A DNA stretch of 15,165 nucleotides from contig JAHFVB010000044.1 in the NCBI GenBank assembly GCA_023264755.1, forward strand, positions 1 to 15,165, read 5' to 3'. The notes beneath the pieces were generated by a model. That model had not been told where the DNA came from. It saw only the letters and a program-made list of their open reading frames with translations, and did no database searches. Source of the stretch: Mycobacterium sp. GTDB taxonomy: Bacteria; Actinomycetota; Actinomycetes; Mycobacteriales; Mycobacteriaceae. Position 1 is the stretch's first letter, and every line of letters starts with the position of its first letter. The translations under genes were made by a program, and so were the position numbers. Shown here piece by piece: positions 1-15,165 of the stretch.

Positions 1-359
1 AGCGCGTCAAGCTCGCCGCCTAGCTGCAGAAGCGCTCGACCGGCCGCACCGTGTACATCCTCGACGAGCCCACGACCGGCTTGCACTTCGAGGACATTCG
101 CAAGCTGCTCAAGGTCATCAACGGGCTGGTGGACAAGGGCAACACCGTCATCGTGATCGAACACAACCTCGACGTGATCAAGACGGCCGACTGGATCGTC
201 GACATGGGACCCGAAGGTGGCGGGGGCGGTGGGACGGTCGTCGCCGCGGGCACTCCGGAGGACGTTGCGGCGGTAGCGGAGAGCTACACCGGCCACTTCC
301 TCGCCGAGCTGCTGTCGGTGGCGGCGCCGCCCAAGAAGCGGCGCAAGGTCAGCGCCTAG
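1..359 (+). pseudogene. uvrA: UvrA excinuclease ABC subunit A, 3' end, interrupted by an in-frame stop
   Basis: UvrA is the ATP-dependent damage-recognition subunit of the UvrABC nucleotide excision repair complex. The reading frame enters at base 3 and reads R-V-K-L-A-A-stop-L-Q-K-R, i.e. the tail of the second ABC signature, with TAG at 21-23 where UvrA proteins carry Glu (a one-base change from GAG). After the stop the frame continues as intact UvrA: Walker B with catalytic Glu ([12 protein letters not shown], 51-86), the H-loop region ([12 protein letters not shown]) and a Gly-rich turn. It ends in a basic tail, PKKRRKV (330-350). A GTG at 51 could start a 102-residue ORF, but this would lack the signature and Walker A. 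Either the gene carries a nonsense mutation that removes the second ATPase site, or the TAG is a sequencing error; the window starts too late to judge the rest. Identity is very secure, inactivation is not. Confidence 0.85.
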
Positions 360-1528
360 CCGAGCGGAACCTTCGCCAGGGGCGACGGGAAGCGTGCGTT
401 GACCCGCACGCCGTCGAGCCATTCGGTCAGCTGGTCGGCCTTGCGCGCCAGGGCCTTGGCGGACTTGGCGTCGAGCTGCTCGAGCAGTTGCACGACGACT
501 CGGCCGTCGGCGTCCTGACCCCAACCGCCGACGATCCGGCCGTCACACCACGCCGTCGGGCCGCCGTTGCCGCTGCGGTCGAACACCTTCCCCTGGTGTC
601 CGCCGAGATACCAGTCGCGGTCCTGCCAACCCATGGTCGTCACGTCGAGCCCCGGCAGTAGCGCGCACCACGGTTCGGCCTTCGGCTCGACGTCGAGGTC
701 GTCGGGCAGCAGGTAACCGGTGGTGCCGTCCATGTCCACTTCGACGGCGCCCACGTCGCGCAGCGCGGCCCGCGCCCACGTGAGGGTGTGGCCGAACCAC
801 CACTTGACGTCGTTCACCGTGGCCGGGCCGAACGTGCGCAGCCACGTCGTGACGAGCGCGGCCCTGGCGGCGTCGTGATCCACGGCCGTCGTGCCCGCCC
901 CGAGCCAATGGGTGGCCGCGACCCACCGGGGGCGTGACGTCGTCCAGGTGCCCTCGTTGGGGCCGCGGACCAGCAGTCCCTGGGCGGCCAACGCGGTCAG
1001 CACCCGCGGGGCGATGGGAGTCGCTCCGCCCCAAGGCTTTCCGGGTGCCGGATCATAGGCGCCGGCGAGTTGGGGGAGCGCTGAACGCAACTCCCGGGCA
1101 CTCGCGTGGCCGTGTTCGGTCACATGAGCGAGCACCGCCTCCGCAGCCTCGTTCAACCAGGTCTCGCCGTCGGAGGCGATACCCGCCGTCACCACGTCGG
1201 CGATCAACTTCCTGCGTTCGTTGTCGGCGACCCGGGTGCTGGCGGCGGCCTGCACGGCGGGCACGTCGCGCGCATCGAACACCCACAGCGTTCGTCGCAT
1301 GGCGAGCTGCTTGACCACTGCACGGTCGGCGTAGAGCGCGGTCTCGAGGTCGGCGACTCCGAACCCGGCGAGCCGGGCCCAGAGCGAAAGATAGGGCGTG
1401 GCCGGGTCGGTGGCATGCAGGCCGACCAGCCGGTGGGTGAGCTCGACGACCCCGTCGTCAGCGGCCTCGGAGAGGAAGTGGCGGCGGGCCAGCCGATGGC
1501 GCCGCTCCTCGACCGAACACGACCGCAC
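356..1528 (-). CDS. HTH_42 winged-helix protein, AlkZ/YcaQ-like putative DNA glycosylase
   Basis: 390 residues, the usual size for the winged-helix DNA-binding HTH_42 family. Characterised members are AlkZ and YcaQ (AlkX), glycosylases that unhook bulky alkylation adducts and interstrand crosslinks. Family-like segments are GLHATDP (residues 36-42), a helix followed by MRRTLWVF near residue 80, winged-helix segments at about 110-270, and [17 protein letters not shown] in the C-terminal part. In AlkZ and YcaQ the catalytic motif at the first site is QxQ or QxD; here it reads H38-A-T40, so glycosylase activity cannot be assumed. The start is GTG at 1526-1528, 2 nt after the stop of the upstream small gene, suggesting translational coupling. 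Its TAG stop shares the four bases CTAG (356-359) with the opposing uvrA stop. Family assignment is confident; substrate and activity are inference. Confidence 0.85.
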
Positions 1529-1530
1529 GC

Positions 1531-1881
1531 TCAGGCTTGGTCCGGCTCGTCGCGCATCGCGGCGCGGATTTCGGCCAGCTTCTCGGCAGCGGCCCGTTGG
1601 CGGGCCTCGTATTGCTCTTCGACGCTGCGCCCCTGCGGTGTCTCGGCGGCCAGTTCGGCGCCGCCGAGCGCGGCGCCGTAGCGCGTCTCGATGCGCTCGC
1701 GGGCGTAGTCGAACGTGGGCACTCCGGCGGCGGTGTAACCCGACTCGGTTCCAACGACCGGAACCGGGTTGGCCGGCTCGGACGGGGCCCGCACGACCTC
1801 GGCGGGAGGTTCGTCGGGTAACGCCACCTCGTCCACTACGACCTCGTCATCCGGGGCTGGGTCGGGCTGGGGATCGGACAC
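1531..1881 (-). CDS. Small acidic/charged protein of unknown function upstream of the HTH_42 gene
   Basis: Not recognised. With the GTG at 1879-1881 the product is 116 residues. It has an acidic, Pro-rich, probably disordered N-terminal half (SDPQPDPAPDDEVVVDEV) and an Ala/Glu/Arg-rich C-terminal helix (EEQYEARQRAAAEKLAEI) that could form a coiled coil. There is no signal peptide or membrane segment. An upstream in-frame TTG (1921-1923) would add 14 residues; neither start has a good ribosome binding site. The GTG is preceded by TACCGT (1889-1894 on the minus strand) and 7 nt, compatible with leaderless translation, and was therefore preferred. It lies 2 nt before the HTH_42 gene, so the two are probably one transcript. 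It is likely a real gene because no opposite-strand frame here looks like a protein, but its role is unknown. Confidence 0.7.
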   Translation of the reverse strand: MSDPQPDPAPDDEVVVDEVALPDEPPAEVVRAPSEPANPVPVVGTESGYTAAGVPTFDYARERIETRYGAALGGAELAAETPQGRSVEEQYEARQRAAAEKLAEIRAAMRDEPDQA

Positions 1882-1991
1882 CTCGCCAACGGTACGCCCG
1901 CCAATAGTTGGGATCGGTAGCAATTCCGGACCGCTGTACTCATCTCACGACGGCGCCATCGGGGCGACGCGGAGAACGAAGGGACAGTTCG

Positions 1992-2498
1992 ATGGGAATT
2001 GCCAAGAATCGAATTCTGGTTGGCGGGATTGGCCTGATTGCCGCAGCCGCCGTATTGGTCGGTTGTTCGGACGACAAGGGCAGCTCGGCGTCCTCCACCT
2101 CGGCCGCAACGGCATCCGGGCCGGCCCAGGTCAGCACCGGCGGCAACACCTCGGTCAAGGTGGAGGGCCAGGATCTCGCCGGCGTGGATATGAAGTCGGT
2201 GACCTGCGTCAAGGCCGGCGGCAAGATCAACGTGGCGAGCGGATCCGCGGGCGGCCAGCAGGGCCTGGGCGTCGTGATGACCGACGAAGCCACCCCGAAG
2301 GTCGAGTCGGTGGGGCTAGTGGTGGACGGCAACGCGCTGGCGGTCGCCTCCATGGGCGGGGCCTCGACCGGGTCCGCCCAGGTCGCCGTCGACGGCAACA
2401 ACTACACCATCACCGGTGAGGCGGTCGGCGCCGACATGAAGAACCCGATGGCGGGCATGATCACCAAGAAGTTCGAGATCAAGGTCACCTGCAACTGA
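1992..2498 (+). CDS. LpqH-family (19 kDa antigen) lipoprotein
   Basis: 168 residues, exported and lipid-anchored. There is a basic N-terminus (KNR), a hydrophobic stretch at residues 8-23 and a lipobox L22-V-G-C25 for signal peptidase II. A Ser/Thr/Ala-rich linker (about 29-54) follows, then the Myco_19_kDa domain. That domain shows the family pattern seen in LpqH: VTC at Cys72, VESVGL, NNYTITGEAVG and a closing FEIKVTC with Cys167; the two Cys probably form a disulfide. M. tuberculosis LpqH is a TLR2-active surface antigen; whether this copy is the orthologue or a paralogue cannot be settled here, so no symbol is given. The ATG at 1992 is chosen because AAGGGA (1979-1984) lies 7 nt upstream and the signal peptide starts there; the frame is open upstream to 1908 but that part is not signal-like. 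A strong hairpin follows the stop. Confidence 0.9.
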   Translation: MGIAKNRILVGGIGLIAAAAVLVGCSDDKGSSASSTSAATASGPAQVSTGGNTSVKVEGQDLAGVDMKSVTCVKAGGKINVASGSAGGQQGLGVVMTDEATPKVESVGLVVDGNALAVASMGGASTGSAQVAVDGNNYTITGEAVGADMKNPMAGMITKKFEIKVTCN

Positions 2499-2509
2499 CG
2501 GGCGACTTC

Positions 2510-2546
2510 GCAGGTGGCGGGCGTGCACTGCACGTCCGCCACCTGC
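2510..2546 (+). terminator. 18-bp hairpin downstream of the lipoprotein gene, probable terminator without U-tract
   Basis: Arms 2510-2527 and 2529-2546 are complementary over 18 bases with a single G-U wobble, around one central base (effective loop 3-5 nt). It begins 12 nt after the lipoprotein stop. No T-run follows, as is common for mycobacterial hairpin terminators. It also separates the lipoprotein transcript from the -10 box at 2564. Confidence 0.7.
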
Positions 2547-2563
2547 GGCCGTGGCGGCCGACC

Positions 2564-2569
2564 TATGAT
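2564..2569 (+). promoter_or_regulatory. -10 box TATGAT of a leaderless promoter for the TPR gene
   Basis: TATGAT matches the mycobacterial TANNNT -10 consensus. It is followed by 6 nt and then the GTG start at 2576, so the expected +1 coincides with the start codon. No Shine-Dalgarno sequence and no clear -35 element precede the start. Confidence 0.6.
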
Positions 2570-2575
2570 CCAGCC

Positions 2576-4306
2576 GTGTCGATCCCCGCCGAGTTGGAGC
2601 GCGCCCGCCGGCTGGCGTTCGCCGACGACGAGGGGGCGGCCAAGGAAGTGCTGCTCGCCCTGATGCCAGCGATCGAGCGCGCCGACCGCGACGATCAGAT
2701 GCTCGAGGTCTTGGCTCAGCTCGGCGAGTTGTACCTCGTTCGAACCGCCTACGACGGCGTGCGGGAGGCGGTCCGCCGGATCCGTGACTGCGTGACCATC
2801 TACGCGGCGATCCTGGACGGCACGGCGGCCTCCGACGTGGCGGCGCAGTCCCGGTTCGGCGACGCCGAGACGCGGCACCTGGTGTGCCGGTACTCGCGCC
2901 GGGCGCAATTCCTGGAAACCGGGCTCGCCGCGGCGATTGGGGACCATGACGGTGCGGCCGCCGCGTTGGCTCGGCTCGACGGCATGGAGGCCGAGTCACC
3001 CGAGCTAGCCGACGAGTTCGGCTTCCTAAAGACCTACGCTCGCGTGCTGTGCGCGGCCGCATTGGGTGAAGACGATCTGCACGTGCGCTCGGTGCCGCTG
3101 TGGCAGCAGGTCATCGAGGACCTCGGCGCGCTGTCGGGCGACGGTGAGCGGACTGATCGGCTGTGGGTGACCGGTGCCCTCGGCTATGCCCGATTCTGCA
3201 TCGAAACCGGTCGACTTGCCGAGGCCGACCCCTGGCTACGCCGCGCAGGTGCCCGCGCCGAAGCGCGCGGATGGGAATTGGTCACGGCCCGAACGCAGTT
3301 GGAACGTGCGACGGCCAGCTGGGCGCGCGGCGACCGGATGGGGACCGAGCACCTGGTCACGGCGGCATACCCGGTCATCGCCCGCTACGCACGCGCGGAC
3401 GACGTGTCCAGATGCTGGTTCTACTTCGGTCTGACGAGGATGGCCGCCGGCGGCTTGCAGGCTGCCGACGAGTGCTGGGAGCACTCCGAACGGCACTGGC
3501 GCGAGCTTGGCAGGCCGTTGCAGATTCACCGTATTCTGCTGCAACGCAGCTGGATTGCCATCCTTCGGGGACGCTATGAGGAAGCCATCGGCATGGTCGA
3601 GCGCGCCCGGTCCTTGCTCGATTCCTGGCCGCGCAGCAGCTGGTTGGCCTATGCGCGGCTGGACCACCACCTCGGTACGGTGTGGCGTGCCGACGCCCTC
3701 GCAGACCTCGGCTTCGACGGGGCCGGCGACCCCGACGAAGATTGGTCGGCCGCCGAAGCGCGCTATCGGGAGGCGCTGGGCGTCACTCGGGCCGAGCCAG
3801 GAACGCAGCGGTATCGTCGTGCCCTCGACAAGCTCGCCCGAGCAGCGGACCTGAAGGTACCCGCCGCGTTGGCGGTCGATTCCGTGCGGTATTCCATCGC
3901 CGACGCCGAAGCCAGGTCGCAGTGGGCCACCTGCATCTCCGCGCCGTTGCTGGCCGGTGCATTCGCCGTGGCGTGGGAGTCGGAGCAGACCGACTTGATC
4001 AGTGCGTTGATCGAATACCACAGCGCCCGAGGCACCTTCAGCGCGGACCTGCCACCGAGCGACGGGCTCGAGTGGGCTCGGGTGGCCGTCGCGCCCGCGC
4101 CGATCGGCAACGTCGACGAACTGGCCCTGGTGGCCTCCGGGCCGGCGGCCGCGCCCGGTCCAGCGTTGACACGACTGGCCCCGCTGCCTCCATTGCAAAT
4201 GGATCCCACCGGAGGCCTGCTACTCACCGACTACCGCGAGCTCGCGCTGCAGCGCTACGGGCAGCACGTCACCACCGCAGAGCCGGCGTGGTCGACGTGG
4301 CCCTGA
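2576..4306 (+). CDS. TPR-like helical-repeat protein, partner of the adjacent CHAT protease
   Basis: 576 residues, soluble, nearly all helical, with no signal peptide. TPR-like helix pairs can be seen around residues 196-235 (GALGYARFCIETGRLAEADP), 283-313 (FYFGLTRMAAGGLQAADECW), 318-353 (QRSWIAILRGRYEEAIGMVE) and 385-405 (DWSAAEARYREALG). The repeats are degenerate, so exact limits are uncertain. In many CHAT peptidases TPR repeats are fused N-terminal to the protease and act as sensor or scaffold; here they sit in a separate gene whose end overlaps the CHAT gene by 19 nt, so a physical complex is likely (inference). The GTG at 2576 is chosen because the protein pattern starts there and a -10 box ends 6 nt upstream, indicating a leaderless mRNA. 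The ligand is unknown. Confidence 0.85.
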   Translation: MSIPAELERARRLAFADDEGAAKEVLLALMPAIERADRDDQMLEVLAQLGELYLVRTAYDGVREAVRRIRDCVTIYAAILDGTAASDVAAQSRFGDAETRHLVCRYSRRAQFLETGLAAAIGDHDGAAAALARLDGMEAESPELADEFGFLKTYARVLCAAALGEDDLHVRSVPLWQQVIEDLGALSGDGERTDRLWVTGALGYARFCIETGRLAEADPWLRRAGARAEARGWELVTARTQLERATASWARGDRMGTEHLVTAAYPVIARYARADDVSRCWFYFGLTRMAAGGLQAADECWEHSERHWRELGRPLQIHRILLQRSWIAILRGRYEEAIGMVERARSLLDSWPRSSWLAYARLDHHLGTVWRADALADLGFDGAGDPDEDWSAAEARYREALGVTRAEPGTQRYRRALDKLARAADLKVPAALAVDSVRYSIADAEARSQWATCISAPLLAGAFAVAWESEQTDLISALIEYHSARGTFSADLPPSDGLEWARVAVAPAPIGNVDELALVASGPAAAPGPALTRLAPLPPLQMDPTGGLLLTDYRELALQRYGQHVTTAEPAWSTWP

Positions 4307-5607
4307 CCGAACGGCCGACGTTGGTGATGCGGTTCGCGGACGTCGGCACCGCGACCTATGCCAGCCTGCGGGTGGTCGGCCAACCCGCGCGCACCGTCAC
4401 GTGGGTGGTGGAGGAACCGTTGGTGCTGGCCGCCCTGGAAGAGCTCGGCGATGCGTTGCCCGAACCCAAGACCGGGGAATCGGCGACCGAAGCCTTGGCT
4501 CGGGCCCTCGGAACCGGACCGCTGGCGCAACCGGCCACGGAGCTGTGGCTGGCGTATCGGCTGGGGGTCCTGCTGCTGTCCGACGCGGCCTGGCAGCTCC
4601 TGCTCGAATGCGTCGACTCGCCGCGGGCGGTGCTGTTCGTCTCTCCGAGTGCCCGGTTGGCGACGGTGCCGTGGGGTCTGCTCGCCGTGCCCGCGGTGCG
4701 GCCGGCGGCCGAGGACCTGGTCCGGGCCCGGGTCGCGGCCGTCACCCAGCAAGGTCCGAAGGCGGCGCGCATTCCGTGGCCGCACGACGACGTGCATTCG
4801 TTGACGGAGGGTTACCGCCTGCTGGAACTCGTCGAGGTCCTGATGGCGGTGCCCGCCAACATCGCGCACGGCCAGCGCTCTCCCGTCACCTGGGCGGACC
4901 GGGCGGCCCGGCCACCCCTGCTGGTGCTGGATCCGCGAGTGCCCAACCAGCGTCCGGACTCGACGCTCGGCTCCGTGCTGGGGCGGCCGGGGTCGGACAC
5001 GGTGCTGGCGCAGCACTTTGGGCGGCTCGCGGAGCGGACGGCGGTGTGGCCCGAAGTCGCTGCGGCGGTGGAGTTGTTCCGGCGCACCGACGAGGACTGG
5101 GCCTGGCTGGTTGGGCGGCTCGGCGACGGCCCAAGTCGGCTGCTGTTCGTCGGCCACGCCACGGCCGCCGACAGCGGGCGGGCCGACCAGGCGGCGCTGC
5201 ACGTGGCCGACGAGCGACCCCTGACGGCTTCGGACGTCATGTCGCTGCGCTTGACCATGCCTCCGCGGGTGGCCCTGCTGGCGTGCGCCTCCGGTGGCGA
5301 CTACCGCTTCGACGAGGCCACCGGCCTGGTGGCGGCGATCGTGCTGGGTGGTGCCCAACTGGTCACCGCCACCTCGTGGTCATTGCCGACGACTGCGGGG
5401 TATCACAAGTTCACCCCGGCACCGTCGGGTGATCCCATGGCCGAGACCGTCATCGCGGTCGACGACGCTCATCAGAGGACGGACGCAGGTTGCGCGGTGA
5501 ACGCATGGCAGCGCGCGCAGCTGCGCCGGTGGCGCGTCGGCGAGTTGGGGGCCAGTCCGATCTACTGGGCGGCCCTGGTCACCTTCGCCGTCGACGGGGT
5601 GCGATGA
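4288..5607 (+). CDS. CHAT-domain (caspase-like) peptidase
   Basis: 439 residues from the GTG at 4288. CHAT domains are clan CD cysteine peptidases related to caspases and separase; characterised bacterial ones cleave gasdermins or, in the gRAMP-bound Craspase, Csx30. The C-terminal half has the family marks: LLFVGHATA with the presumed catalytic His290, VALLACASGGD with the nucleophile Cys333, VLGGAQLVTATSWSLPTTAG after it, and the closing SPIYWAALVTF typical of CHAT ends. Residues 1-200 are a mixed alpha/beta N-terminal part without recognised motifs. The start overlaps the TPR gene by 19 nt; GTG at 4297 is an alternative (10-nt overlap). GCAGAG (4277-4282) is a weak ribosome binding site, so coupling to TPR translation is likely. 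The stop is 5 nt from a convergent gene. Protease class is confident; substrate is unknown. Confidence 0.88.
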   Translation: MVDVALTERPTLVMRFADVGTATYASLRVVGQPARTVTWVVEEPLVLAALEELGDALPEPKTGESATEALARALGTGPLAQPATELWLAYRLGVLLLSDAAWQLLLECVDSPRAVLFVSPSARLATVPWGLLAVPAVRPAAEDLVRARVAAVTQQGPKAARIPWPHDDVHSLTEGYRLLELVEVLMAVPANIAHGQRSPVTWADRAARPPLLVLDPRVPNQRPDSTLGSVLGRPGSDTVLAQHFGRLAERTAVWPEVAAAVELFRRTDEDWAWLVGRLGDGPSRLLFVGHATAADSGRADQAALHVADERPLTASDVMSLRLTMPPRVALLACASGGDYRFDEATGLVAAIVLGGAQLVTATSWSLPTTAGYHKFTPAPSGDPMAETVIAVDDAHQRTDAGCAVNAWQRAQLRRWRVGELGASPIYWAALVTFAVDGVR

Positions 5608-5612
5608 GGTCT

Positions 5613-6260
5613 TCAGCTGGGTGGTACGCAGACGGCGACCGCGGACTCGTCCCCGCGGCGGTAGTACGCATCGACGATGCCGCCCGGCGCGAGGTCGGGC
5701 AGTGCGGACGCCGGAACCAGGGCCAGCTCGTGCGCGGGGAACTGGCCGCCCTCGGGTCTGCTGACCATCAGGTCGAGCTCGACCTCGCGGAAGTCCTCGC
5801 GCGCCTCCCCGGTCGCCCGCATCGCCGTCACCACGCCGTGGGTTCGGATCCCGTGCCGGATCAGCTCGAGTTGGGCGCAGGTCACCAGACCCTTGCGGAC
5901 CAACATCCGGTCGAAGGCCGACCGGACCGCGACGATGTCGTCGGCCAGCGAAAGCCGTTCGCGAGCTTCGGGATCGAAGGACACCAGCAACACGACTCCC
6001 GGTCGCAGCCCGGATACCAAGGGATCGTCGGGGAGCTGACGCAGCCGACCCACGAAGTGCTGGCCCGACACACTTTCGACCTCCACGGTGATCGGACCCG
6101 TCACGGTCCGTACCGTGCCCACCGCTACCGAGTTGCAGGTACGGGGTGCGGCACCGAGCCGCCGGGCCCGGTGCGGGGGGCGGCGCCCCGGGCGCGCCAA
6201 CGCAACGCCGAAGGCAACGCACACGGGGATCATCAGCAGCAGCGACAGAGCTTCGGGCAT
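5613..6260 (-). CDS. Small membrane-anchored protein with two similar beta-rich domains
   Basis: 215 residues from the ATG at 6258-6260. One N-terminal transmembrane helix (about residues 3-22) is followed by an Arg-rich stretch (RPGRRPPHRARR), so the bulk should face the cytoplasm. Two stretches share a pattern: residues 43-105 (GTVRTVTG ... LVSGLRPGVVLLVSFDP) and 141-212 (GVVTAMRATG ... ALPDLAPGGIVDAYYRRGD). Both run from a beta strand with T-G, through alternating beta residues, to L-x-P-G, a hydrophobic strand and an acidic turn, as seen in small beta-barrel domains of actinobacterial membrane proteins. A helical linker (106-140) joins them. Function unknown. A TTG at 6297-6299 would add 13 residues; neither start has a clear ribosome binding site, but the ATG directly precedes the membrane helix. 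It lies convergent to the CHAT gene and divergent from the next operon, suggesting island membership. Confidence 0.75.
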   Translation of the reverse strand: MPEALSLLLMIPVCVAFGVALARPGRRPPHRARRLGAAPRTCNSVAVGTVRTVTGPITVEVESVSGQHFVGRLRQLPDDPLVSGLRPGVVLLVSFDPEARERLSLADDIVAVRSAFDRMLVRKGLVTCAQLELIRHGIRTHGVVTAMRATGEAREDFREVELDLMVSRPEGGQFPAHELALVPASALPDLAPGGIVDAYYRRGDESAVAVCVPPS

Positions 6261-6313
6261 GCCAGCATGGTCCGCCGGCGACTCGGCTACCGAACCCAAC
6301 TTCTTGCTGGCCC

Positions 6314-6319
6314 TATCCT
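6314..6319 (+). promoter_or_regulatory. -10 box TATCCT of a leaderless promoter for the second island operon
   Basis: TATCCT fits TANNNT and ends 6 nt before the ATG at 6326, the same geometry as the TATGAT/GTG pair at 2564-2576. No Shine-Dalgarno sequence precedes the ATG. It lies in the 65-bp divergent gap with the minus-strand membrane protein gene. Confidence 0.6.
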
Positions 6320-6325
6320 GGGCCG

Positions 6326-7645
6326 ATGGACTCGGGGCCGCACGTGTTGACGACCGTCGGCGTCGCCAGGCCCCGCCGCGCGGTGATCGAGCAGGCGTGG
6401 CGGGCCATTGGACCCGGCGTCGAACTACTCAGCGGCGGCGACGGCGGTCCGTTGCGCAGAACCGTCAAGCGCATTCTCGACCCCCTGGTGTTTCGGCTGC
6501 GGTCCAACCCGCAGTACTCGGCACCCGTGCTCGAGCCAGAGGTGGCGGCGGCGCTCACCGAGCTCATCACCGCCCACGCAGACCAATTGCGTTCGGCCTC
6601 AAGCTGGTTCGCGCTGCTCAAGACGGCCCGCCGACGGCTGCGGATAACCACGGGCAACGCCCAGGAGCTCTACTTCCCGGTGTGCTTCGAGCTCGCCGTC
6701 ACCAGAGGGGCGCCGTCGCCCGCGGACGGCGGCACCGCCGAGGAGGTGCTCCGCGAGTTACACGACGATCGGGATCGCACGGGTATCGAGCAGCTGAACC
6801 GCTACGTCGCTGACGCCCGGGTCGTCGCAGCACTGGCCGGCCAGCTCGAAGCCAGTTGGCCCGACGTGCGCCCCGGGACCACCATGGCGGGTCCCTTCCT
6901 CGCCGGCCTGGCCGCGGTGCTCGGTCCGGCCGAGGGTCACACCGCGCGGATGGCTCGGCAGCGGGTCTGGTCGGCGCTGATCGCAGACGCCACCCCGTAC
7001 AACCTGGGGGCGCGGGCTCGTACCGAGTTCGCCGAACTGCCGTGGTCGATCGTCGAGGTCGGACTGAGTTCGATTGCACCACAACAACCGCCGCCGATTG
7101 TGGGTGGTTCGGATCGCGATCGTCCGCTCGACCGGGCCGTCGTCGACCGGGTGCGGGCCACCCTGCGGCGGGCGCTGGATCGAGGGGAGCTCCCCGACGT
7201 ACCGCTGCTGTGCGCCGAGGAGGTGGACCGGTCCTGCGCTCCGTGGGGGCTGCTCTCCGAGGACAAACAGGCCACGCTGGTGGCGGGCCTCGAACTGGCC
7301 GTCGAGCTGGCGCCGCTGCGCGAAGCAGCCGAGCCGAAGTACGCTCTCGGCCGCCAGATTCAGGCCCGGCTGCGCAAGGAGGCCTACGTTCTGCACGCCC
7401 GGCGCTATCTGGCCGACGGCGTTGCGCTGCATCCCAGGCAGCGCCAGGTCGTCGACGACCTCGCCGCGTTCGCCCGCCCGTACACCAGCAGGTTGTGGGC
7501 CCGGCTGCATGGGCGCGACGTCTGGCAGGAGTCCTGCGCCGACGTGGACGAGGTTCGGGCCCTGCTGGACGGGGTCGCCCGCTCGGTCAGCCTCGACCAT
7601 CGGCAGCGCATCCGGGCGATGCTGGAACAGGCGGTGGCACAATGA
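6326..7645 (+). CDS. Unrecognised 439-residue helical protein of the CHAT island
   Basis: Function not recognised. The product is 439 residues, Arg/Ala/Leu-rich and predicted mostly helical, with no signal peptide, membrane segment, Walker motif or nuclease motif that I can see. Segments that look structured include LDPLVFRLRSNPQYSAPVL (about 52-70), an AHADQLRSASSWFALLKTAR helix (about 87-106) and a charged C-terminal helical part (HPRQRQVVDDLAAFARPYTS). The ATG at 6326 is chosen over the open frame running back to 6146 because the upstream part is low-complexity Arg/Ala/Gly and overlaps the divergent gene on the other strand, and because a -10 box lies 6 nt upstream. Its last codons overlap the next gene by ATGA, so the two are translationally coupled. 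Context suggests a partner, regulator or substrate of the CHAT protease (inference only). Confidence 0.8.
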   Translation: MDSGPHVLTTVGVARPRRAVIEQAWRAIGPGVELLSGGDGGPLRRTVKRILDPLVFRLRSNPQYSAPVLEPEVAAALTELITAHADQLRSASSWFALLKTARRRLRITTGNAQELYFPVCFELAVTRGAPSPADGGTAEEVLRELHDDRDRTGIEQLNRYVADARVVAALAGQLEASWPDVRPGTTMAGPFLAGLAAVLGPAEGHTARMARQRVWSALIADATPYNLGARARTEFAELPWSIVEVGLSSIAPQQPPPIVGGSDRDRPLDRAVVDRVRATLRRALDRGELPDVPLLCAEEVDRSCAPWGLLSEDKQATLVAGLELAVELAPLREAAEPKYALGRQIQARLRKEAYVLHARRYLADGVALHPRQRQVVDDLAAFARPYTSRLWARLHGRDVWQESCADVDEVRALLDGVARSVSLDHRQRIRAMLEQAVAQ

Positions 7646-8757
7646 AATTGGTGGCCGAATCGGGCTCGTGGGGCACCGGCCCCATCGCCGCCGACCCGCC
7701 AGCGGCGGCGGTATTGGAAGTCAGTGGTGCCGTGCTGTCCTGGACGGTCGACGATCCGACTGGTCCAGGCTCCACCCATGTCGCCTTCACCGACGTCGAA
7801 GCGGCCGAATGGCTTTGGCGGGTGGTTGGGCAGGCTGGACACGTGGCGCTGCTCGCGGCCCTGGCCGGTCGGGTGCCCGAAGCCGGCCAAATCGTCGACG
7901 TCGCGGGAGTCGAACCGGCTCCGGAGCTGCTGGCGCCCCTGCGTCGGTTGGCCGTCGGGCACTGGCTACGGCGATGGTGGCCTGCGAGTTCTCGGGACGG
8001 CATCGTCAGTCTGGATGCTGCGGTACTCGACGGCGAGCTGGCCCTGCTCACCGTCGCCGCCCAGGACTACTTCACCGACGACACGTTCGACTCCGACGTC
8101 GCGGACTTGTTGCGGCCACATCGCGCGGCGCTCGCCGCACTGGTCGGCGACGGCGATCCCCGCGTCGCCGAACTGGCCAGGGCCTGCACCGAACTCGCCG
8201 ACGACGTCGGCCTCGCGCGGGTACCCGAGTCGGCGCTGCCCGAACCGCAGGCGGCGCGGCGACGCGATGACTACGCCTTGGCGGCCGGGTCGGACTCGGC
8301 CGCGACCTCCGCCGAGCAGGTCGCCAGGGGAGTCGGCTCGCTGAATTGGACCGCGGTTCCGCCGGGAGTGTTCGACGCTGCGGATCGCACGGTCGACTGG
8401 GCGATCGAGCTGTCGGGAGCTACGGCCACCGCCGACGTCCGGGTGGCCATCAGCGCTCCCGTCGCGGGCATCGAGGTACGCCTGCGGGCCGGGCCCTTCA
8501 GCGCGGCCGGGGTGCTGAGCGCCGCGGGACGCGCCTCCCTGCCGGTAGTGGACGCGGCCGGTCGGCCGGTGCCGGAAGTGCAGGCCTGGAACCATGATTG
8601 GACGACCACGACGGTGTCCGTCGGGGCCGACGTCGGCGACTCGGAGGCGGGCGCCGACGTTCGCCGACGACTTCGCGACTTCGCCCGCGCACGGTTGGCT
8701 CGCCCGGCCGCGGACGCGTTTCTCGCCGAGTCGTTGGCGGCCGAATCCGACTACTGA
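7642..8757 (+). CDS. Unrecognised 371-residue protein with C-terminal beta-sandwich-like part
   Basis: 371 residues starting at the ATG of an ATGA overlap with the preceding gene. I do not recognise the family. Residues 1-140 mix strands and Trp-rich helices (AAEWLWRVVG, GHWLRRWWPAS). Residues about 140-230 are acidic and helical. From about 230 on the sequence becomes beta-rich (LNWTAVPPGVFDAADRTVDW, VRVAISAPVAGIEVRLRAGP), with a transthyretin/prealbumin-like stretch (ASLPVVDAAGRPVPEVQAW), then a last amphipathic helix. No signal peptide or membrane segment is seen, so it is probably cytoplasmic. Co-translation with the 439-residue protein argues for a complex. Gasdermin features such as an N-terminal palmitoylatable Cys are not evident. 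A role as CHAT substrate or adaptor is only a contextual guess. Confidence 0.8.
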   Translation: MKLVAESGSWGTGPIAADPPAAAVLEVSGAVLSWTVDDPTGPGSTHVAFTDVEAAEWLWRVVGQAGHVALLAALAGRVPEAGQIVDVAGVEPAPELLAPLRRLAVGHWLRRWWPASSRDGIVSLDAAVLDGELALLTVAAQDYFTDDTFDSDVADLLRPHRAALAALVGDGDPRVAELARACTELADDVGLARVPESALPEPQAARRRDDYALAAGSDSAATSAEQVARGVGSLNWTAVPPGVFDAADRTVDWAIELSGATATADVRVAISAPVAGIEVRLRAGPFSAAGVLSAAGRASLPVVDAAGRPVPEVQAWNHDWTTTTVSVGADVGDSEAGADVRRRLRDFARARLARPAADAFLAESLAAESDY

Positions 8758-8813
8758 CCGAGGCGCTCCGCCGGCCGGTTCGGGGACGCGCGCGTCGACT
8801 CGGTGCGCCTTGG
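8758..8813. terminator. Possible bidirectional terminator between convergent genes
   Basis: The 60-bp gap between the island and the convergent siderophore-protein gene holds CCGAGGCGC (8758-8766), complementary to GCGCCTTGG (8805-8813) with one G-U pair. An inner palindrome GACGCGCGCGTC lies at 8785-8796. There is no T-run on either strand. High GC makes chance pairing likely. Confidence 0.3.
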
Positions 8814-8817
8814 GGGC

Positions 8818-9540
8818 TCACGCGGCCCAATAGGCCTGCGCCTTCATGGATTTGCGCGGGATCGCGTACTGCTCGCGCAATACCTTGGCGACCGAACGGG
8901 TGGTGCGGTTGTCGCAGGCCACCCAGCCGAAGTGGTCCGTGGCCTCGAATGCCGACGCGCTCACCGCGCTGACGAGCGCCCCGCCGCCGTCGGCCCGGTC
9001 CACCCAGGTGATCCGGACGTCGCCGGCTGCCAGCACGGGCAGTTCGCGATCATCGGCGTGCCCGGCCTCCAGGAACACCTGCGCCGGCACGTCTCCGATG
9101 GCGCCGAGCAGTGAGTTGATGGCCGGCAAGGACGCGGTGTCTCCGACGATGACGTAGCCCGCCGGATCCGGTGTGGGCAGCGTGAAGTTGCTGCCCAGAA
9201 CGGTCACCTCGAGGACCTCGCCGATCGCGGCCTCGGTGGCCCATCTGGTGGCCAGGCCGTCGTGCATGGCGAAGTCGATGGCGACGGTCCCCGCCACCGG
9301 ATCGGGGTCGACCAGGGTGTACCCGCGTTGGTGGGACTTGTCGCCATCCGGGAACCAGCCGCGCACCCACATCGTCGGGTGGACGGAGCGTTGGGTCAGC
9401 AGTGCGCCGGAGTCGAAGTGCAGCCGCAGGTAGTGCGGACTGAGCTCGGTGCGTTCGGTGACCGTGAGTTCGTAGTCGCCGCCTCGCCACAGTTTGACGA
9501 GCGTGCCCGAGATTCCGCGGGACGGTTTCCGATCGGCCAT
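8818..9540 (-). CDS. Siderophore-interacting protein, FAD-dependent ferric-siderophore reductase (ViuB/SIP family)
   Basis: 240 residues, close to the usual SIP length. Members use FAD and NAD(P)H in the cytoplasm to reduce ferric siderophores and release iron. The N-terminal FAD-binding barrel carries R72-G-Y-T75 (HQRGYTLVDPD), the counterpart of the RxYS/T flavin-binding motif. The C-terminal NAD(P)H-binding SIP domain begins with GYVIVGDTASLPAINSLL (about 127-144), equivalent to the GDETALPA motif of the family, and the protein ends in AYWAA like other SIP proteins. The ATG at 9538-9540 has an excellent GGAGGT five bases upstream (9546-9551). A DtxR/IdeR-type box at 9562-9580 predicts repression by iron. 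It is convergent to the CHAT island, with lysX transcribed in the same direction behind it. Which siderophore it serves is not visible. Confidence 0.93.
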   Translation of the reverse strand: MADRKPSRGISGTLVKLWRGGDYELTVTERTELSPHYLRLHFDSGALLTQRSVHPTMWVRGWFPDGDKSHQRGYTLVDPDPVAGTVAIDFAMHDGLATRWATEAAIGEVLEVTVLGSNFTLPTPDPAGYVIVGDTASLPAINSLLGAIGDVPAQVFLEAGHADDRELPVLAAGDVRITWVDRADGGGALVSAVSASAFEATDHFGWVACDNRTTRSVAKVLREQYAIPRKSMKAQAYWAA

Positions 9541-9545
9541 GGGCC

Positions 9546-9551
9546 ACCTCC
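9546..9551 (-). promoter_or_regulatory. Strong ribosome binding site of the siderophore-interacting protein gene
   Basis: On the minus strand GGAGGT is followed by 5 nt and the ATG at 9540, fixing this start. It contrasts with the lack of such sites at the starts preceded by close -10 boxes. Confidence 0.85.
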
Positions 9552-9561
9552 AGTGCTGAAG

Positions 9562-9580
9562 TTAGGTAATGCTAACTTTA
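9562..9580 (-). promoter_or_regulatory. IdeR/DtxR-type iron box
   Basis: The plus strand reads TTAGGTAATGCTAACTTTA, matching the IdeR consensus TTAGGTTAGSCTAACCTAA at 15 of 19 positions, with an intact inverted TTAG...CTAA core. It lies 21 nt upstream of the start codon of the siderophore-interacting protein gene and overlaps TAGCAT and TAAAGT, possible -10 hexamers on the minus strand. IdeR with iron bound should therefore block transcription. Confidence 0.8.
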
Positions 9581-9643
9581 GCTGCTGGCGATGAAGCTAG
9601 GTCCCGTACCCGGTTCGCCCCCGCGTTCCAAGCCACCCCAGGG

Positions 9644-12967
<3,324 letters not shown>

Positions 12968-12975
12968 AGGCGGCG

Positions 12976-12981
12976 AGGATA
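12976..12981 (-). promoter_or_regulatory. Candidate -10 box TATCCT for lysX, near-leaderless
   Basis: On the minus strand TATCCT is followed by 8 nt and the lysX ATG. With +1 expected 6-9 nt after the box, the transcript would have zero to two leader bases. No Shine-Dalgarno sequence lies in those 8 nt. No -35 match is evident. Confidence 0.45.
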
Positions 12982-13047
12982 TGCGTTCTGGCTAGGAAAT
13001 GGGGTGACCGCGGCCGGGGAGTAGCCCGGCAGGAGTAAGGGCATGGG

Positions 13048-13422
13048 TCACCAAACCGGCCCGGTGTACTTCTCGCCGGGGCCCTGGCCCGGTTCGTCGG
13101 GTGCGGCGCTGGCCTCGCGGAAGGCCAGCTGCAGGCTCTTGAGCCCGTCCCGGACCGGTCCGGCGTGGGGGCCCAGGTATTCCACCGAGGCCGTCACCAG
13201 TCCGGCGAGCGCCGTGATGAGCCTGCGCGCTTCGTCGAGGTCCAGGTGCGGGCTATCCTCGGGGTCCGGCGCCGAGAGCCCGAGCTTCTCGGCGGCCGCG
13301 CTCATCAACATCACCGCGGCGCGCGTGATGACCTCGACGGCGGGAATGTCGGCCAACTCGCGGAGTGGGGGCGAAGCCGCCGGTTCGGGTTGTACTTCGG
13401 GTTGTACAAAGTGTTCCGTCAT
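13048..13422 (-). CDS. DUF1844 domain-containing protein
   Basis: 124 residues, soluble. After a Pro/Glu-rich N-terminus (QPEVQPEPAASPP), residues about 25-100 form the helical DUF1844 domain. It is marked by an I-P-A-V-E-V-I region followed by the AVMLMSAAAEKLGLS helix, an acidic DLDEARRLITALAGLV helix and a helix bearing LKSLQLAF, and ends in a Pro/Gly-rich tail. Function of the family is unknown; in mycobacteria it is typically found beside infC, as here. The ATG at 13420-13422 is chosen because the conserved part starts there; the frame is open far upstream but that region overlaps the infC leader and infC itself on the other strand and is not protein-like. The gene is divergent from infC and lies 80 nt upstream of lysX in the same direction, so some co-transcription with lysX is possible. 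Confidence 0.85.
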   Translation of the reverse strand: MTEHFVQPEVQPEPAASPPLRELADIPAVEVITRAAVMLMSAAAEKLGLSAPDPEDSPHLDLDEARRLITALAGLVTASVEYLGPHAGPVRDGLKSLQLAFREASAAPDEPGQGPGEKYTGPVW

Positions 13423-13428
13423 GCCTGC

Positions 13429-13434
13429 TAGACT
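13429..13434 (+). promoter_or_regulatory. Candidate -10 box TAGACT of the infC-rpmI-rplT operon
   Basis: TAGACT fits TANNNT, and transcription would begin near 13441, leaving a leader of about 240 nt. TTGTAC (13402-13407) is the only -35-like hexamer, but its 21-nt spacing is too long. The promoter would lie only a few bases from the start codon of the divergent DUF1844 gene. Confidence 0.4.
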
Positions 13435-13440
13435 TGCACG

Positions 13441-13681
13441 CGCGACCGTCCCGGCATACGCCAGGACAGCAAGTGGAGTCCCACTCCCACCGTTTGGCCC
13501 CGTGATTCGTCTCGGAGGTGCAACGGTCCGGTCACAGGCACCTGGCGGTGCCTGTTCTGCGTATCTTCGCAGGCGGCGAAAGCCGCGATCGGTCGGCATT
13601 GGGCCCTGCATATGCAGGGCCGCTCTGCTCTTACGAGCAGAGTGCTGATGGCGTGGGCCCGCCAACGACATAGGAGGCCCC
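13441..13681 (+). ncRNA. Structured 5' leader of the infC operon (cis-regulatory candidate)
   Basis: No gene was found in this stretch of about 240 nt; instead it holds a run of hairpins. These are 13534-13555 (9 bp, loop TGGC), 13573-13586 (5 bp with a GAAA tetraloop), 13602-13621 (8 bp, loop ATAT, a perfect 20-base palindrome) and 13621-13644 (10 bp with one G-U, loop TTAC). A long-range pairing of 13642-13651 with 13680-13689 encloses the ribosome binding site and covers the infC start codon. The last two overlap at 13642-13644 and so exclude each other in part. infC-rpmI-rplT operons are autoregulated by IF3 and/or L20 in other bacteria, which fits a regulatory leader. No U-tract is present, so translational control is likelier than intrinsic termination (inference). 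Confidence 0.6.

Positions 13682-13684
<3 letters not shown>
13672..13684 (+). promoter_or_regulatory. Ribosome binding site AGGAGG and ATC start codon of infC
   Basis: AGGAGG (13672-13677) is followed by CCCC and ATC (13682-13684), which opens the IF3 frame exactly where IF3 proteins begin ([11 protein letters not shown]). There is no in-frame ATG, GTG or TTG between the upstream stop TGA (13646-13648) and 13766, which lies 28 codons inside conserved IF3 sequence. Confidence 0.85.
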
Positions 13685-14314
<630 letters not shown>

Positions 14315-14345
14315 CCGAACGATCCACCACGAGAACTGAGGATTC

Positions 14346-14540
14346 ATGCCCAAGGCCAAGACCCACAGTGGCGCATCAAAGCGGTTCCGGCGTACCGGAA
14401 CCGGCAAGATCGTGCGCCAGAAGGCCAACCGCAGGCACTTGCTCGAACACAAGGCGTCGAAGCGCACCCGGCGGCTCGACGGCCGCACCACGGTCGCCGC
14501 GAACGACGTGACCCGCGTCAACAAGATGCTGAACGGCTGA
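14346..14540 (+). CDS. rpmI: 50S ribosomal protein L35
   Basis: 64 residues, the standard length. Highly basic, beginning with [18 protein letters not shown] and continuing with [19 protein letters not shown] and KRTRRLD, all L35 hallmarks. L35 is a component of the large ribosomal subunit. GAGGA (14338-14342) lies 3 nt before the ATG. Second gene of the infC operon, followed by a 53-nt gap to rplT in which nothing but a ribosome binding site (AGGA near 14583) is visible. Confidence 0.98.
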
Positions 14541-14593
14541 GCTTGCTTCTGGCAGCCCGTCGCCCATAGCCCGTACGAGAATAGGAACACCCA

Positions 14594-14983
14594 ATGGCAC
14601 GCGTGAAGCGCGCACTAAACGCCCAAAAGAAGCGGCGCACCATCCTCAAGGCCTCCAAGGGCTACCGGGGGCAGCGCTCCCGACTCTACCGCAAGGCCAA
14701 GGAACAGCAGCTGCATTCGCTGTCCTACGCCTACCGCGACCGGCGGGCCCGTAAGGGCGAGTTCCGCAAGTTGTGGATCTCCCGCATCAATGCGGCGGCT
14801 CGCGCCAATTACATCACCTACAACCGACTGATCCAGGGGCTGAAGGCCGCCGGTGTCGAGGTGGACCGCAAGAACCTCGCCGAGATCGCCGTCAGCGACC
14901 CGGCCGCGTTCAGCTCGCTGGTCGAGGTGGCCAAGGCCGCCCTGCCCGCCGACGTCAACGCTCCGTCCGGAGAGGCCGCCTGA
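14594..14983 (+). CDS. rplT: 50S ribosomal protein L20
   Basis: 129 residues, slightly longer than E. coli L20 owing to an Ala-rich C-terminus ([11 protein letters not shown]). The N-terminal basic rRNA-binding extension [19 protein letters not shown], then [20 protein letters not shown], and the core motifs [14 protein letters not shown] ([19 protein letters not shown]) and [18 protein letters not shown] identify L20. It is an early 23S rRNA assembly protein; in other bacteria it also represses its own operon by binding the leader mRNA. Last ribosomal gene of the operon; 34 nt to the rRNA methyltransferase gene, so read-through is likely. Confidence 0.98.
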
Positions 14984-15017
14984 GCACTCGCCGGGCAGGT
15001 GCGAAGCGACCGGGGAT

Positions 15018-15165
15018 TTGACCCAGCCGCTGACCGAGCGCTCGGATCGCGTAGCTGCGGCGCTCAAACTGCACCGCACCGCGGGACGTCGCCGCGCCGC
15101 GCGCTTTCTCGCCGAGGGTCCCAACATCGTCGAGGCAGCGCTGCGGCGCGGTTTGGTGTCTGACG
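15018..15165 (+). CDS. tsnR: TsnR/SpoU-family 23S rRNA methyltransferase, 5' end (runs off the window)
   Basis: Only the first 49 residues are present. The pattern LTERSDRVAAALKLHRTAG followed by RRRAARFLAEGPNIVEAAL is the N-terminal substrate-binding domain of SpoU-type (SPOUT) 2'-O-ribose rRNA methyltransferases and matches mycobacterial TsnR, which directly follows rplT in M. tuberculosis. The TTG at 15018-15020 is taken as start because it is the only ordinary start codon close to the conserved beginning; the ribosome binding site is poor (CGGGGA just upstream). The SAM-binding SPOUT knot lies beyond the window, so activity cannot be judged. The gene is probably co-transcribed with infC-rpmI-rplT. 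Confidence 0.85.
   Translation, partial: MTQPLTERSDRVAAALKLHRTAGRRRAARFLAEGPNIVEAALRRGLVSD

Follow-up and report, generated by a model that had tools for sequence, protein, structure and literature searches.

A six-gene cassette of Mycobacteriaceae with a split TPR-CHAT protein pair, a candidate regulated-proteolysis system

Introduction

CHAT proteases of bacteria are known from CHAT-gasdermin operons, in which the protease gene lies beside a gasdermin gene, and the CATRA systems take their name from caspase and the tetratricopeptide repeat (TPR). The closest described systems are outlined in the cited sections of three papers. Craspase contains Csx29, a TPR-CHAT protease with a H615/C658 dyad, and its partner Csx30 is composed of two domains and a flexible linker and is cleaved within a flexible loop in the C-terminal domain (PMC10028731); CATRA are caspase-dependent ternary conflict systems (PMC8195603), and EACC1-caspase is a two-gene membrane system with a caspase-superfamily protease (PMC7159879). 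In this work we analyse a cassette found in a 15,165-nucleotide (nt) stretch of Mycobacterium sp. DNA (contig JAHFVB010000044.1, positions 1 to 15,165; hereafter the window). It encodes a TPR protein (A) and a CHAT protein (B) on separate genes, a membrane-anchored protein (C), two proteins of no recognised family (D and E) and a lipoprotein of the LpqH type, and the genes form one unit.

To judge by sequence, the cassette would work like Craspase in outline without being a Craspase, and is best described as a variant of the TPR-CHAT kind. It shares with the type III-E system (Craspase/CASP), as presented in the cited sections, a TPR-CHAT arrangement with a His/Cys dyad, a two-domain neighbour and extra conserved genes without an assigned role (PMC10028731). 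However, its TPR and CHAT parts are on separate genes and not in the one polypeptide of type III-E, D and E have no detected similarity to described families, and its partners include a membrane protein and a lipoprotein; type III-E loci have Cas7-11/gRAMP and a CRISPR array beside TPR-CHAT, and here no Cas match was found among five cassette proteins in Pfam, PADLOC or NCBIfam, nor any CRISPR-like direct repeat between positions 1900 and 8900. The likeness to CHAT-gasdermin operons is that of a CHAT protease next to a possible substrate gene, but the cassette has two co-translated uncharacterised proteins instead, and no partner gave a gasdermin-named match in Pfam or PADLOC, the models of D and E being of modest confidence. 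With CATRA, compared by description only, it has caspase and TPR components in common, whereas D, E and their distant relatives give no NCBIfam or Pfam match near cut-off. As in EACC1-caspase, in the sections cited, a single-transmembrane protein is encoded with a caspase-superfamily protease (PMC7159879), but C is convergent, dispensable and weakly DUF3592-like, with no EACC1 match in Pfam at E 1, and B carries no fused variable C-terminal domains. In the collection of open-access papers searched we found none joining LpqH with the CHAT domain, nor one joining the CHAT domain with mycobacteria and the tetratricopeptide repeat.

Results

The genes of the LpqH-type lipoprotein (1992-2498), A (2576-4306), B (4288-5607), D (6326-7645) and E (7642-8757) are read from the forward strand of the window, and C (5613-6299) from the reverse strand, convergent with B. 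A and B, of 576 and 439 residues, both have a GTG start and their genes overlap by 19 nt; D, of 439 residues with an ATG start, is coupled to E, of 371 residues, by an ATGA overlap. C is 228 residues long from its TTG start, or 215 from an alternative ATG at 6260, 13 codons downstream. A check of the open reading frames left the genes A to E as a sequence-only reading of this DNA had placed them; the island described there is real but was incomplete, the sixth gene, that of the lipoprotein, having been missed.

We searched 198 genomes of the genus for D, CHAT, C and LpqH. D is present in 129 and CHAT in 125; the two occur together in 125, D alone in four, CHAT alone in none and neither in 69 (Fisher p 5e-49, a value that ignores relatedness). 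Three of the four D-only genomes hold decaying cassettes, and the fourth, G406, is a fragmented assembly. The cassette mostly decays as a whole unit: what is left in G491 is E and the final 50 residues of D, in G492 dispersed fragments of A, D and E, and in G514 pieces of D and E with a doubtful 57-residue LpqH match; in G518 deletions affect B and span the D-E junction, and in G442 D lies in pieces in different frames. At the level of loci, a deletion runs from a neighbouring DNA glycosylase gene into D in L209, scattered remnants persist in L210 and L211, B and the D-E boundary are hit by deletions in L212, and D is in pieces in L213.

The association extends beyond the genus. In a family sample of 121 genomes, CHAT is present in 25 and D in 21, and all 21 D genomes have CHAT; the CHATs of the genomes without D (G003, G014, G078 and G116) are distant, partial or at a contig end. 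In a class sample of 296 genomes, D was found in 23, CHAT in 27 and both in 21. The two D-only cases are short or weak fragments, and the six CHAT-only cases comprise four weak matches, one 187-residue fragment and G347, where the gene after CHAT encodes a remote relative of D (profile probability 91 over 374 columns) and the next one a distant E (98). The sequence-only reading had proposed that the genes are a unit. Indeed, CHAT homologues did not consistently lack these neighbours, nor were the neighbours widespread without a CHAT gene, with one exception among the 198 genomes, G406.

Gene order points the same way. A D-profile scan of genome contigs gave 405 relatives, of which the best 80 were used, by title all from Mycobacteriaceae, Mycobacterium and Mycolicibacterium among them. 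Beside D stand E in 80 of these, B in 79, A and C in 78 each and LpqH in 69. The misses fall at contig or stretch ends, save for C in L067 and the remaining cassette in L111; ten of the 11 LpqH misses are short of upstream sequence, and the other is the broken-up cassette of L111. LpqH and E occur in order at 82 of the 94 loci supplied. The upstream flanks of these 82 fall into groups of 36, 29, 11 and 4 with two singletons, and the downstream flanks (79 loci) into groups of 36, 28, 11 and 4, which places both singletons and leaves four addresses: between uvrA and lysX; near dnaX, an Rv3722c-type aminotransferase gene and lipL; near an agmatinase gene; and near a luciferase-like monooxygenase gene in another genus, g11, perhaps Williamsia judging from a D identity of about 65%. 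The uvrA-lysX location given in the sequence-only reading is thus correct for the window and one of four as a general site.

At that address, r between the pairwise distances of the six proteins and the LysX distances is 0.81-0.90, with up to 42 loci compared; for comparison, r is 0.82 for the glycosylase, 0.65 for a 102-residue piece of UvrA and 0.56 for InfC. Since the distances of the cassette follow LysX, its inheritance there is mainly vertical, that is, it descends with the chromosome, unlike a typical defence island.

D homologues are found in Jiangella, Glycomyces, Saccharothrix, Actinosynnema, Amycolatopsis, Kibdelosporangium and others. Among 24 distant or odd loci mapped by profile, the order is D-E-A-B in the distant families and genera where a single stretch holds all four genes. 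In g16 and g23, other genera of the family, LpqH is found on the other side of D in six of seven loci, and C in three of seven. D, E, A and B are therefore a widely shared minimal set to which C and LpqH are lineage additions, and the indispensable protease partner is more likely to be D or E than C.

B matches the Pfam CHAT family (PF12770) with E 3e-9 and 37.2 bits against a curated cut-off of 24. His at 290 and Cys at 333 are present in all 111 rows that cover both sites, the window included (CHAT was found in 110 of the 111 loci supplied, and one additional row, a short fragment, stops before the sites), so that both the CHAT assignment and the His290/Cys333 pair of the sequence-only reading are borne out. 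B would then be an active protease. A, with a conserved C-terminal module at residues 410-574 approximately, has a sub-threshold TPR score in the window protein (TPR_12, E 0.0023) and clear TPRs in several relatives, and may act as the sensor. The matches to A and B never share one reading frame (24 loci mapped). Second CHAT copies occur in cassette-bearing genomes, L058 being a bare A-B pair and L215 a CHAT without A. The distant A homologue of G347, whose gene is on the opposite strand, carries a Ser/Thr kinase domain N-terminal to its TPRs, and the G347 cassette adjoins the gene of a large FHA-FtsK/SpoIIIE protein (both features at L199 947-5308 and 5331-7904).

No match near cut-off was obtained for C, D or E in Pfam, NCBIfam or PADLOC. 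Searches gave 1398 homologues for D and 1423 for E, and the 120 matches listed per search hold no functional name, one row excepted; that row reads "alginate export protein", evidently an erroneous naming. D is predicted to be all-helical (predicted local distance difference test, pLDDT, 74.4; 14 sequences). The mixed model of E (overall pLDDT 60.8; 10 sequences) comprises N-terminal strands and helices, a variable linker and an immunoglobulin-like (Ig-like) domain at about 225-330, which is better modelled, and structure comparison gave no trustworthy solved relative for either protein. Among the six cassette proteins D is the slowest-evolving (mean distance 0.25) and E the fastest (0.42), LysX having 0.16.

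Between the linker and the Ig-like part, E carries the motif ALAAG at residues 212-216. The motif is exact in 98 of 107 E rows, including 13 of 13 distant rows, and has one change in six rows; one further row is unreadable, one is cut before the motif, and L111 differs at three of the five positions. As L111 is the sole D-E locus without CHAT, the motif may be kept on account of the protease. The Ig-like prediction agrees with the beta-rich part that the sequence-only reading saw in E, but as a substrate or regulated partner E is at least as plausible as in the adaptor role suggested there. By analogy with Csx30 and its two domains and flexible linker, E would be the first substrate candidate and probably the likeliest substrate.

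Close to its N terminus C has a single hydrophobic segment, with basic residues after it; oriented by the positive-inside rule, its folded part is therefore predicted to be cytosolic, on the same side as the protease. It is made of two modules (about 44-130 and 109-228), of which many genus genomes match only the first or only the second, and two of its homologues show weak sub-threshold similarity to DUF3592. C was found in 117 of the 198 genus genomes, 116 of them D-positive and the remaining one (G549) weak and with stops; in 13 D-positive genomes, three of them with remnant cassettes, it was not found. The sequence-only reading had considered C an attractive effector, which is hard to maintain for a protein that is not found at several D-E-A-B loci, has no room in L055 and L213 and is often half matched.

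The LpqH-type lipoprotein (19 kDa antigen family) matches PF05481 with E 1.4e-30 and the LpqH structures 4zjm and 7fds of the PDB with E 4e-16, and its hydrophobic segment ends in VLVGC, a lipobox assigned by eye. It has the Pfam family and the lipobox in common with LpqH proteins at large, but forms a separate group that is a dedicated member of the cassette. A search with the window protein at E 1e-20 matched 135 of the 198 genus genomes. The match is strong in 125, reaching at least E 1e-40 in 124 of them and being split in two in G409, and each of the 125 is D-positive; in the other 10, all without D, the best match lies between 1e-22 and 9e-21. On account of this gap we do not regard the LpqH found in cassette-free genomes as the gene of the cassette. 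Among D-positive genomes, a strong LpqH match is missing only in G491, G492, G514 and G529, the last with CHAT at a contig start.

Six nt upstream of the GTG of A lies a -10-like box, TATGAT (2564-2569, forward strand), and TATCCT (6314-6319, forward strand) is at the same distance from the ATG of D. The pattern TANNNT exactly 6 nt before the start codon was found at 83 of 86 loci for A and at 53 of 53 for D, counted on those of the 94 loci whose tblastn match starts within the first three residues; the other spacings of the set of 38 each gave at most 9. We take TANNNT at such a spacing to be the mycobacterial leaderless promoter pattern. In the window and in L061, L062, L064, L065, L069, L070 and L072, conserved DNA, GGCTACCGAACCCAACTT, lies upstream of D at two spacings to the start codon. 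An imperfect palindrome (2510-2546, forward strand), a candidate terminator or operator read from the sequence, begins 11 nt past the lpqH stop and ahead of the A box; its arms, 2510-2527 and 2529-2546, are complementary at 17 of 18 positions.

Discussion

We propose, with moderate confidence, that the cassette is a regulated-proteolysis system in which a split TPR-CHAT protease, controlled by D, acts on E and is linked to the envelope. Confidence is lower for each single step named than for the whole. A and B would be the two halves of the protease, with the TPR subunit keeping the caspase-like subunit inactive and taking in the signal. D and E would be its regular partners, made from an apparently leaderless mRNA, D serving as a helical scaffold or sensor and ALAAG in the linker of E being the likeliest recognition or cleavage site. 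A cut there would part the helical portion of E from the Ig-like portion, thereby freeing or abolishing an activity. The module would, in Mycobacteriaceae, be tied to the envelope through C, with its cytosolic domain and one transmembrane helix, and through the dedicated LpqH, which suggests the envelope as the site of either the trigger or the consequence. The direct support consists of the unit with its order and co-loss, the conserved dyad and domain layout, the promoter pattern at the start codons and, at one address, vertical inheritance.

Several points weigh against this proposal. G406 keeps an intact D and an E that runs off the contig, and no CHAT was found in this assembly (84% complete, 720 contigs); the 2,182 bases upstream of D, on the contig that is also L111 or L214 (stretch 152-4326), hold a Ser/Thr kinase gene (Pkinase E 6e-42), and LpqH and a 35-residue piece of C are on a separate contig (L216 6469-7713). 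The D-E pair may be able to function on its own, or else there is a fault in the assembly. The loss of ALAAG in L111 partly offsets the slight weakening that comes from this kinase-side contig and from a motif that is not invariant, but it is a single case, and ALAAG may reflect a fold instead of a cleavage site, the model of E being weak. CHATs of lower identity without recognisable D or E exist in L058 (accompanied by A alone), in L215 (without A) and in L060 and L204, which places the partnership in the present CHAT group and not in all related CHATs. In the profile map no C or LpqH was found at the Jiangella D-E-A-B loci, and the envelope link through these two proteins would stand on genomic association. 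Finally, protease activity, the role of E as substrate, an envelope trigger and the outcome of cleavage are steps that we infer.

Other readings share much of this evidence. An antiphage system working by abortive infection, in which A and D sense, the unleashed CHAT kills or arrests the cell and E or C is the executioner, seems unlikely to us. CHAT or caspase-like proteases, some with TPRs, do appear in described or predicted bacterial immunity in the cited sections of PMC10028731, PMC7159879 and PMC8195603, and the presence of D in 129 of 198 genomes, three of them with remnants, is patchy and accompanied by decay in some. On the other hand, there was no PADLOC match, divergence tracks LysX at the uvrA-lysX address, and the addresses are few and lie between ordinary chromosomal genes, in contrast to defence islands with their rapid exchange; an immune system that is old and stable would still fit. 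A pathway of envelope surveillance or morphology, with LpqH and C reporting the state of the envelope and the protease trimming a regulator, is a tentative option that we regard as somewhat doubtful. It would account for a dedicated lipoprotein and membrane protein linked to the cassette in the genus, for a strong LpqH that tracks D, for vertical inheritance, and for the LpqH and C kept by g16 and g23 despite another gene order, but not for the Jiangella loci, at which D-E-A-B is kept and neither C nor LpqH was found, or for the genus genomes that lack C, and LpqH is predicted outside the membrane, on the side opposite to the protease.

That the CHAT protein is a non-proteolytic scaffold is quite improbable: the cited sections of PMC7159879 describe about 70% of the caspase domains that occupy the effector position in vWA components as catalytically inactive, whereas His and Cys are kept here in every row. 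Least credible of all is that the neighbours are functionally unconnected hitch-hikers. Synteny at any single address could be inherited, and G406 has D and E with no CHAT found, but four addresses, two gene orders and near-strict co-loss already largely contradict this idea.

Returning to regulated proteolysis, six genes that are kept, moved and lost nearly always together probably belong to an unstudied protease-signalling pathway, possibly running from the cytoplasm to the surface. Its fullest form, a new actinomycete pathway in which TPR-CHAT would cut E at ALAAG under D and be coupled across the membrane to LpqH in Mycobacteriaceae, we put forward tentatively and rather as a possibility than an expectation. 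About two thirds of the sampled genus genomes carry this caspase-like module with two functionally unnamed families, and E is a concrete candidate for the substrate of a caspase-like enzyme of bacteria that is encoded in neither a CRISPR nor a gasdermin operon. Furthermore, one branch of the LpqH lipoprotein family acquires a genomic partner and, if the pathway is real, this surface-antigen family would have among its members a part of a caspase-like switch for stress or death.

A few observations concern related loci and neighbouring genes. A kinase has been met twice near the module, fused to A in G347 and beside D-E in G406, a lead for its control. Distant CHATs near TPR genes and large uncharacterised proteins lie at L060 6128-13001 and L204 9279-12274. 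Relatives of D or E beside these CHATs were not supported in profile comparison; L060_6128 is related to L204_10275 (phmmer 3e-7) and not recognisably to D or E, and the set is possibly a sister system. In the window an AlkZ-like DNA glycosylase gene (PF06224, E 4e-67) at 356-1528 adjoins uvrA. We rejected it, uvrA and lysX as cassette members, and the glycosylase gene is present only together with uvrA (80 loci).

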